Source: Lentzea kentuckyensis (GTDB taxonomy: Bacteria > Actinomycetota > Actinomycetes > Mycobacteriales > Pseudonocardiaceae). From it: a DNA stretch of 64,000 nt. Under the pieces are notes generated by a model, which was given only the letters and a program-made list of their open reading frames with translations, did not search any database and was not told the DNA's origin. Positions 36,761 through 37,955 of this stretch are shown here, one piece after another (positions within the stretch are counted from its first letter, which is position 1; each line of letters starts with the position of its first letter). A program made the translations under genes and the position numbers. The stretch spans positions 62,001 to 126,000 of the forward strand of contig NZ_MUYM01000056.1 of NCBI RefSeq assembly GCF_002150765.1, in the 5' to 3' direction.

Positions 36761-37492
36761 ATGACGAAGCTGAACCAGATCATCGCGGTGGAGAAGAGTG
36801 TCAAAGGGGGCACGCTTCGGGACCTCACCGACGCGCATCACGGGTTGCAGAAGCCCGCGTTGTTGGCCGGTATCTCCCGGACGTACCAGCCCAAGGACGA
36901 GGACGGCGAGGTGTTGCCGCCGGAGTCCACTCGCGTGCAGGTCAACGCCGAGGACGTGTTGCGGAAGACCGCCGCGGTGATGACTCGGCTCTTCGACGTC
37001 ACGGCTACCAAGGACTGGGCCAACTGCGTTGCGAAGGCCGATGTCGTGGTTGACGGGCAGGCGTTGCTTCGCGACGTGCCTGTGTCGTACCTGCTCTTCC
37101 TCGAGAAGCAGCTGACCGACTTGCACACCTTCGTGAAGAAGCTGCCCTTGCTGGACGCGGCCGAGGACTGGAACTTCGACCAGTCCGCCGACTACTGGCG
37201 CACCGAGCAGGTTCGGACCATCCGCACCAAGAAGGTGCCGCGCAACCACGTCAAGGCCGAGGCCACGGAGAAGCACCCGGCGCAGGTCGAGGTGTACTAC
37301 GAGGACATTCCGGTGGGTTACTGGACCACGGTGAAGTTCTCCGGTGCCCTGCCTGCTCGGCGGGTGAACGAGCTCGTCGACCGGGTGGAGAAGCTGCAGC
37401 ACGCGGTGAAGTTCGCCCGGGAGGAAGCCAACGGCCTGGAGATCACTGACCAGCGTGTCGGTCAGACGGTCTTCGACTACCTTTTCCGGTAA
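36761..37492 (+). CDS. conserved hypothetical protein (possibly DUF7873)
   Basis: A 243-aa soluble protein, MTKLNQIIAVEKSVKG at the N-terminus, with a long charged helical region (about 45-140) and a VEVYYEDIPVGYWTTVKFSGALPARR segment near 180-205. I recall a family label DUF7873 but cannot verify it. No enzymatic motif is visible. Ribosome site AAAGGGGGG precedes ATG 36761. Hairpins follow, then the permuted tRNA-like loci only 86 bp downstream, which may be a functional link. Confidence 0.7.
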   Translation: MTKLNQIIAVEKSVKGGTLRDLTDAHHGLQKPALLAGISRTYQPKDEDGEVLPPESTRVQVNAEDVLRKTAAVMTRLFDVTATKDWANCVAKADVVVDGQALLRDVPVSYLLFLEKQLTDLHTFVKKLPLLDAAEDWNFDQSADYWRTEQVRTIRTKKVPRNHVKAEATEKHPAQVEVYYEDIPVGYWTTVKFSGALPARRVNELVDRVEKLQHAVKFAREEANGLEITDQRVGQTVFDYLFR

Positions 37493-37504
37493 CGCCAACA
37501 GACT

Positions 37505-37542
37505 CCCCCGCTGGAGCGCGGGGGTGCGCTCCCGTTGGGAGC
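37505..37542. terminator. two hairpins between the 36761 gene and the permuted tRNA loci
   Basis: A 7-bp stem (37505-37511 with 37518-37524) is followed by a 6-bp stem (37528-37533 with 37537-37542). No T-run follows. They may end the upstream gene or belong to the structured leader of the tRNA-like transcript; part of the second stem could pair instead with 37671-37676. Confidence 0.5.
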
Positions 37543-37577
37543 GTGAAAGCTGAAACTGAAACGTCAGCCTGAACCAC

Positions 37578-37653
37578 TCGGTCACAGGTGGGGGTTCGAA
37601 TCCCTCTCCCGGCACCATCACGCCGGGGTAGCCCAATTGGTAGAGGCAGCCGG
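37578..37653 (+). tRNA. circularly permuted tRNA-like locus A (3' half before 5' half)
   Basis: The order is 3' half, CCA, 4-nt linker, 5' half. 3' half: anticodon-stem side TCGGT (37578-37582), 7-nt variable region, T stem GGGGG/CCCTC around TTCGAAT, acceptor TCCCGGC (37607-37613), A73, encoded CCA (37615-37617). Linker TCAC. 5' half: acceptor GCCGGGG (37622-37628), TA, D stem GCC/GGC, anticodon-stem side GCCGG (37649-37653). All stems pair across the permutation; acceptor position 7 is G-U. After GCCGG comes GATCAAG. Joining chemistry and anticodon are undetermined. Confidence 0.6.
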
Positions 37654-37726
37654 GATCAAGCTCAGACTCTCGCTCCAGATTCAGCATTTCCGCCGAACGC
37701 CAGATCGCCCGAGAACGGACAAGACT

Positions 37727-37798
37727 CGCCGAGGTGGGGGTTCGAATCCCTCTGGCCGCTCCAACCATGCGGCCGTAGCTCAACGGAAGAGCGCGGCG
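37727..37798 (+). tRNA. circularly permuted tRNA-like locus B (3' half before 5' half)
   Basis: Same architecture as locus A. 3' half: CGCCG (37727-37731), variable AGGT, T stem GGGGG/CCCTC around TTCGAAT, acceptor TGGCCGC (37753-37759), T73, encoded CCA (37761-37763). Linker ACCAT. 5' half: acceptor GCGGCCG (37769-37775), TA, D arm GCTC-AACGGAA-GAGC, G26, anticodon-stem side CGGCG (37794-37798). The acceptor has six Watson-Crick pairs and one G-U; the anticodon stem is perfect, extendable by A-U. After CGGCG comes ACCTAAG. Confidence 0.6.
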
Positions 37799-37856
37799 AC
37801 CTAAGGACTGATCCGACTCTTAAACGTCGCTGGTGTGCGCAAATGGGCGGCAAAAC

Positions 37857-37887
37857 GGGGCCCTGGACTGGACATGTCCGGGGCCCC
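37857..37887 (+). terminator. terminator of the permuted tRNA-like transcript
   Basis: A 12-bp stem (37857-37868 with 37876-37887, one G-U) with a 7-nt loop follows locus B by about 60 nt and precedes the next gene. Confidence 0.7.
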
Positions 37888-37955
37888 ACCCGCGCGAGGT
37901 GACGAGGGAACTGCGGTTCCCGGCCCAGCCGGCAACCACGCCTACCATCGGTGCG

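Follow-up and report, generated by a model that had tools for sequence, protein, structure and literature searches.

A conserved noncoding RNA of ~390 nucleotides (nt) was found directly 3′ of a gene encoding a DUF7873 protein in a 64,000-nt stretch of Lentzea kentuckyensis DNA (contig NZ_MUYM01000056.1, positions 62,001 to 126,000 of the forward strand; hereafter the window, whose own numbering is used throughout). The RNA spans positions ~37505-37887 of the (+) strand, the strand on which all its parts given below also lie, and bears two tRNA-like heads whose elements are arranged in circularly permuted order. We consider it likely that the locus encodes a two-headed permuted tRNA mimic and its partner protein, DUF7873, and that these form a ribonucleoprotein (RNP) akin to those of Y RNAs but independent of Ro60. 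Homologous RNAs go together with DUF7873 in many soil bacteria, other actinobacteria among them, and in phages. Comparison of these loci established that the RNA folds into two domains with tRNA-like heads, that it is linked to DUF7873 and that no anticodon is conserved; from these results we infer how the RNA may be bound and processed, and what it may do.

The RNA appears to open with two hairpins (37505-37524 and 37525-37545), read from the sequence, the first of which starts 12 nt past the stop codon of the DUF7873 gene; in other alignment rows a hairpin of variable sequence can be read by eye at this place. An alignment of 44 loci defined the two domains that follow. Domain A (37549-37685) comprises a basal stem (GCUGA/UCAGC) and inner helices with the permuted tRNA-like head A on top, while domain B (37688-37853) is a long basal stem with a conserved internal loop (GAUC opposite CUUAAACG) and head B at its tip; the conserved internal loop of domain A is represented by the strand ACUCUCGCUCCAG. 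The heads themselves were delimited by sequence, pattern scan and covariation. Head A (37590-37647) runs from a T arm (37590-37606) through the acceptor 3′ strand TCCCGGC (37607-37613), A73 with CCA and the linker TCAC (37614-37621) and the acceptor 5′ strand GCCGGGG (37622-37628) to a D arm (37631-37647). The corresponding elements of head B (37736-37792) are a T arm (37736-37752), the acceptor 3′ strand TGGCCGC (37753-37759), U73 with CCA and the linker ACCAT (37760-37768), the acceptor 5′ strand GCGGCCG (37769-37775) and a D arm (37778-37792). A terminator-like hairpin of 12 base pairs (bp), with one G-U and no U tract (37857-37887; sequence and folding), closes the RNA; a perfect hairpin of at least 8 bp was present 3′ of domain B in 24 of the 47 loci examined, the window not counted. 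Since the hairpin of the window lacks a T run, a scan for intrinsic terminators returned no match at the locus.

A sequence-only reading of this DNA had described the order T arm, acceptor 3′ strand with CCA, linker of 4-5 nt, acceptor 5′ strand and D arm as occurring twice, with full acceptor pairing inside each module. The permuted order was confirmed on the sequence, and the recomputed acceptors paired at 7 of 7 positions in both modules. Its statement that the halves do not pair across loci also held, with 4 of 7 pairs in either combination across modules versus 7 of 7 within them. ARAGORN called no tRNA at the locus, which agrees with that reading in showing that this is not an ordinary tRNA array. 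In ~132 kb of shuffled sequence, however, the permuted-module pattern was matched 12 and 7 times, so that a single match means little and the case rests on conservation.

To find relatives, the intergenic region was used as a blastn query; this returned four records of a plasmid collection (three from Streptomyces, one from Nonomuraea) and partial matches in five phage records. A match in Bacillus phage P59 was rejected, being an ordinary tRNA junction (tRNA-Thr followed by tRNA-Leu). Each of the six further records inspected (L002-L007) encodes a protein of ~243 amino acids (aa) ahead of the region, and three of the blastn-record proteins were assigned to Pfam DUF7873 with E values of 2e-99 or better. 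A search with DUF7873 then yielded 73 phage records, from phages of Vibrio, Gordonia, Rhizobium, Klebsiella, Serratia, Arthrobacter, Pseudanabaena, Rhodococcus and Microcoleus. The resulting set comprised 173 loci, the bacterial ones being the best 80 of 449 confirmed DUF7873 matches and the viral contigs the best 80 of 115. A simple scan for the module pattern in the 900 nt downstream of DUF7873 detected at least two permuted modules in 101 of the 173 loci, one in 59 and none in 13; the respective numbers were 58, 22 and 0 for the 80 bacterial loci, and 34, 33 and 13 for the 80 viral ones.

Acceptor pairing was evaluated with a pattern anchored on the T loop and the D-arm motif, independently of pairing. 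The A module was anchored in 99 of the 173 loci (the remaining 74 were not anchored by this pattern), and these contained 34 different acceptor stems, 29 of which paired at 7 of 7 positions, the mean being 6.71 pairs. When the A acceptor strands were dealt out among the loci, the mean fell to 4.25 pairs and reached at most 4.79 in 1000 shuffles. Chance pairing of the heads is excluded by this comparison. Covariation was then assessed in alignments of 44 loci per domain, picked for having two modules and at least six acceptor pairs, against 500 shuffles and slid controls. In domain A, 92.4% of the cells were paired (shuffled, 83.4%; slid, at most 44.9%), and double changes were seen in 17 of 30 pairs; in domain B the values were 92.0% (shuffled, 70.2%; slid, at most 48.2%) and 42 of 46 pairs, with 433 double-change cells versus 112 expected. 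Double changes affected all seven acceptor pairs of both domains and at least one pair in 12 of the 13 helices, and all measures lay above the 500 shuffles and far above the slid controls. Compensatory changes, whose absence from related loci the sequence-only reading had named among the observations that would refute it, were thus present: the pairs of the acceptors and T arms covaried, as did most of those in the basal stems. The tRNA elbow was complete, with the pair G53-C61 in every row of either domain (44 of 44 each) and the GG of the D loop in 44 of 44 rows of domain A and nearly all rows of domain B.

The outer flanks of the modules had likewise been described as complementary. They do extend the stem; the proposed pairing of GGAGCG (from 37538) with CGCTCC (from 37671), on the other hand, lies outside the well-supported nested helices. 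Locus L098 differs on both of these strands and still forms 6 of 6 pairs, pairing is missing in many phage rows, where the region is poorly aligned, and GGAGCG fits a local hairpin as an alternative. The two strands could form a pseudoknot, for which the comparison provides partial support. The conserved flanks also brought to mind a group I intron in permuted intron-exon order, a candidate that was discarded: the relaxed Rfam list held no intron family, and the flanks are covarying basal stems.

The part of the sequence-only reading that found no support was that the modules are tRNA genes. From genuine circularly permuted tRNA genes, decoding tRNAs would arise once the heads had been cut out, sealed on the anticodon side and opened at the linker, and much in the window agrees with this: the permuted order, the encoded CCA, the paired acceptors, the extended anticodon-side helix and the presence of the ligase RtcB in the genome. 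The search for a ligase or endonuclease proposed by that reading was nevertheless successful only by half, as the L. kentuckyensis genome (rated 92% complete) contained no match to the splicing endonuclease family PF01974 (tRNA_int_endo). Nor is an anticodon conserved. The triplet at positions 34-36, located by a constant spacing from the D stem, took 23 forms in 44 rows of domain A and 19 forms in 42 rows of domain B (2 of the 44 rows were not matched), and U33 was present in just 7 of 44 and 11 of 42 rows, respectively. In the 101 of 173 loci with two modules, CCA was encoded in only 19 of the 34 stem types of head A and 17 of the 47 of head B, and the basal stems extend further, through pairs that covary and internal loops that are conserved. 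Moreover, 21 of the 80 bacterial loci had, instead of head A, a short insert that lacks a T-loop motif, puts 51-68 nt between the core motifs and is made up mainly of a hairpin (a weak one in L078); these loci retained the flanking core and a head B pairing at 7 of 7 positions. That head A can be swapped for a hairpin fits a scaffold role. The permuted tRNA genes of red and green algae and of Thermofilum are described as having the 3′ half before the 5′ half with an intervening sequence (PMC3978253). The likeness to the present RNA lies in this order and in the paired acceptor strands; those genes, however, restore a decoding tRNA by splicing, whereas the RNA studied here has no conserved anticodon and its host genome no splicing endonuclease match. 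Decoding tRNA genes are accordingly a very improbable explanation.

Other features touch on tRNA structure. With regard to a bulge-helix-bulge at the junction, the internal loop of domain B below the head appears asymmetric in the alignment (~5 versus 10-12 nt). Directly 3′ of domain B, 3 of the 47 relatives examined carried a tRNA-like element in normal order (L103:5030-5101, L116:5034-5105 and L196:1385-1457), resembling an added third head. The anticodons given by ARAGORN for this set were taa, atg and one of two letters; a hairpin followed the element in L103 and L196 and, by eye, in L116.

To examine the linkage between RNA and protein, a covariance model of domain B (R1) was run on 69 of the 173 loci, chosen to include hard cases. 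Domain B of the window, a training row, scored 151.7 bits. A full-length R1 match (E ≤ 2e-7) was obtained in 64 of the 69 DUF7873 loci, or in 56 of 61 when the 7 training rows were left out together with L002, which has the same sequence as training row L032. Most of the loci in which the simple pattern had detected fewer than two modules also gave a full-length match when submitted to R1. Sixty related genomes were also searched. DUF7873 was encoded in 16 of them, and full-length R1 matches (E ≤ 4e-13) occurred in the same 16 of 16 and in 0 of the 44 others. Weak partial matches (E 5e-7 to 8e-4) appeared in 11 of the 44 genomes lacking DUF7873; of the eight examined, six lay 0.4-0.95 kb from a match to TROVE, the Ro60 profile, and two fell on tandem tRNA genes (L193, L194). 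Within Lentzea, the pair of DUF7873 and RNA was present in 15 of 24 genomes, while an actinobacterial sample that included L. kentuckyensis contained DUF7873 in 6 of 296 genomes. No neighbouring open reading frame of at least 110 aa, alternative frames within the DUF7873 gene itself being disregarded, recurred in more than 13 of the 80 bacterial loci, and the gene neighbourhood hence gives no clue to function.

Tandem tRNA junctions can thus give weak partial R1 matches, as also happened at 884-952 of the window, the junction of two ordinary tandem tRNA genes; such junctions are a source of false positives in searches with permuted models. This is what could be said for the notion that the heads are remnants of a rearranged tandem tRNA array. 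Their halves, however, pair within modules and not across them and, unlike pseudogenes, covary across genera and phages; this covariation refutes the notion, which is almost certainly wrong. On contig C217 of the L. kentuckyensis genome (L192:2281-2433), two tandem tRNA genes were given the four-letter anticodons ctgg and ctta by ARAGORN, that is, enlarged anticodon loops.

The position of the RNA immediately behind a coding sequence could also mean that it is a cis-acting element in the 3′ untranslated region of the DUF7873 mRNA, its heads serving as processing signals (for RNase P and others) or autoregulatory sites without a separate RNP. In line with this, only 12 nt separate the stop codon from the first hairpin, hairpins flank the RNA on both sides, C74-Y75 is conserved behind the acceptors (see below), and a scan for promoters of the sigma-70-like type, other promoter types being outside its scope, found none in 37480-37950. 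However, the basal stems are more elaborate than a simple processing signal would require, and the full-length R1 match lay upstream of the DUF7873 match in L119 and downstream on the strand opposite to DUF7873 in L124, which indicates that the link is not merely that of a 3′ untranslated region. We regard such an element as unlikely. In two further loci (L134, L135) ~400 bases separate the DUF7873 match from the RNA; judged by eye, these seem to encode an HNH-type endonuclease, perhaps an insertion.

The precedent that the sequence-only reading had lacked is the bacterial Y RNA. YrlA is described as superposing on tRNA as a circular permutation in PMC11472068, and as having a length of 90-150 nt, a stem that binds Rsr/Ro60 and a tRNA-like domain that binds PNPase in PMC8394870. 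When Rfam was searched with a relaxed threshold, YrlA (RF02553) ranked first among the families for either module (26.2 and 22.4 bits; E 0.0016 and 0.02); at curated thresholds no family matched there, and no YrlA match at the gathering score was obtained in the loci of 16 relatives. The RNA shares with YrlA (PDB 6CU1) a basal stem bearing a circularly permuted T arm-acceptor-D arm mimic of tRNA. It differs in having two heads in ~390 nt as opposed to one in the 90-150 nt described, in keeping an NC(C/U) behind the acceptor strand, absent from three Ro60-linked hairpins compared by alignment, and in its protein: YrlA is partnered by Ro60, whereas the linked protein here is DUF7873, and no TROVE/Ro60 match was found in the L. 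kentuckyensis genome (rated 92% complete) or among the 10 window neighbours scanned. A TROVE match, mostly to part of the profile, was present elsewhere in the genome in 12 of the 16 DUF7873 genomes. By analogy, the RNA probably works as the tRNA-mimicking Y RNAs do, with a different protein.

In Lentzea, the head region of R1 (model positions 46-106) also partially matched short modules, made of a permuted T arm, acceptor hairpin and D arm, within ~1 kb of Ro60/TROVE. Four such stretches were fetched (L190, L191, L195 and L197), in which ARAGORN called no tRNA and Rfam reported nothing at threshold. The modules near TROVE matches would be canonical Y RNAs, which suggests that two RNP systems of a single genus share this head. 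As the four stretches fall below its threshold, the Rfam YrlA family may under-report actinobacterial Y RNAs.

The putative protein partner is encoded at 36761-37492 (+) and has 243 aa; it scored 399.7 bits with Pfam PF25283, for which the gathering cut-off is 27. Its closest relatives among the best 80 of 449 matches are from Lentzea, with 98% identity. The AlphaFold model, a confident one (predicted local distance difference test, pLDDT, 93.3; predicted template modelling score, pTM, 0.67), consists of long helices and a beta sheet. The linkage leads us to propose that DUF7873 binds the RNA. No description of the RNA or of DUF7873 was found in the literature searched, subscription papers and preprints lying outside its scope. 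A weak structural match of this model in BFVD, from Vibrio phage Vp_R1, was followed up and dismissed, there being only weak R1 matches nearby (best E 0.042, 13.5 bits); a 173-aa protein beside tRNA genes in this phage (L198:42670-43306) is, by its length, probably the protein matched.

Several observations weigh against an RNP of this kind. The minimum-energy fold of the RNA of the window taken as a single sequence (z -2.2) contains neither the two heads nor the two-domain fold; the near-identical T arms favour the alternative fold, and the two-domain structure rests on comparison. The acceptor percentages in the 44-row alignments lean high because the rows were selected beforehand for at least six acceptor pairs, the fair test of the acceptors being the pairing-independent anchoring; similarly, T54, T55, C56 and A58 are invariant yet were required by the pattern used to pick the rows. 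The basal stem of domain A is weaker, since in helices 1 and 2 the double changes affect 5 of 14 pairs and the share of paired cells is 83-85%, and one of its pairs fails in 21 of 44 rows; helix 3 of domain B (two pairs) shows no double change. The modules missed the Rfam gathering score for YrlA (69) by more than 40 bits. Five of the 69 loci gave a partial R1 match or none: L150, where the contig ends, L166, and L171, L172 and L173, from Vibrio, Klebsiella and Pseudanabaena phages. Finally, the DUF7873 model had no convincing fold match in the PDB (best row, E 0.054), and a BFVD search returned one unconvincing row (E 4.7e-4) with TM-scores near 0.2, so that structure lends no support to an RNA-binding role.

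These points considered, a two-headed RNP could operate as follows. Each half of the RNA would be a long hairpin whose conserved internal loops act as a docking platform and whose tip presents a permuted tRNA elbow and acceptor stem. DUF7873 would assemble into the RNP by docking on the basal stems at their conserved internal loops, and the heads would recruit proteins that recognise the elbow and acceptor of tRNA, such as PNPase, RNase P or tRNA-modifying enzymes. The RNP might then steer an enzyme of RNA processing or RNA decay, as YrlA does for Ro60 and PNPase.

RNase P may in addition nick the linker and free the acceptor end, as suggested by the nucleotides behind the acceptor 3′ strand: C74 was retained in 30 of the 34 A and 45 of the 47 B stem types, and C74-Y75 in 28 and 44 of them, respectively. 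Bacterial RNase P recognises a 3′ NCC next to its cleavage site. With C74-Y75 conserved, the specific prediction is that either acceptor is nicked on its 5′ flank, in the manner of two-piece transfer-messenger RNA (tmRNA), whose tRNA-like domain is opened at an intervening segment. The latter RNA is described as having a permuted gene and a transcript processed into two pieces (PMC10085705); it shares the permuted gene order with the present RNA, which differs in having two heads. No tmRNA match was found in the window at gathering, and none was listed at E ≤ 10 in 37480-37920, in a table that omits two lower-scoring matches which overlap others and belong to the same clan. A bolder version, in which the Ro60-independent RNP is a new RNA machine whose heads are nicked by RNase P at the conserved N-C74-Y75 and, once matured to free acceptor ends, could be charged or bound by EF-Tu, would make it the double, permuted, protein-bound counterpart of two-piece tmRNA in bacteria and phages; this strikes us as unlikely. 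As a separate observation, one bacterium and three viral records have a tmRNA gene no more than a few kb from the DUF7873 gene (L018:628-1002, L115:1384-1912, L174:1072-1600 and, by ARAGORN, L125:2476-2873).

The phages provide a further context. At least three ordinary tRNA genes lay in the stretch examined in 26 of the 80 viral loci (none in 40, up to 31 in one locus), no bacterial locus had three in the stretch examined, and several phages carry the pair of DUF7873 and RNA inside large tRNA arrays. A role in the handling of tRNA or RNA during translation fits this context, and so does that of a tRNA decoy, a phage counter-defence kept by bacteria that would soak up tRNA-targeting nucleases or modifying enzymes. 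Many phages carry the RNA, and its heads copy the elbow and acceptor. However, the heads do not preserve the anticodon loop that anticodon nucleases require, the system occurs away from tRNA arrays in many bacteria, and a decoy alone would have no need of a linked protein; this role appears improbable. GOLLD is another RNA that lies near tRNA genes. Together with other large RNAs of phages and bacteria, it is presented as a large structured noncoding RNA in PMC12286853. The RNA described here is alike in being large, structured and noncoding, but has a different architecture and a linked protein gene; no Rfam match to GOLLD-type RNAs was found in the window at the curated threshold, nor in the relaxed list for this stretch.

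To our knowledge, permuted tRNA mimicry of this kind is known for one bacterial RNA design, the Y RNA with Ro60. If the two-headed RNP proposed here is real, a two-headed RNA with a protein of its own would constitute another design, distributed over actinobacteria and diverse phages, and permuted tRNA mimics would be a general tool. DUF7873 would gain a partner that can be tested, and the RNA would offer a comparison for what Y RNAs do. The locus also calls for caution, since a bacterial genome may contain permuted tRNA halves that are not tRNA genes.
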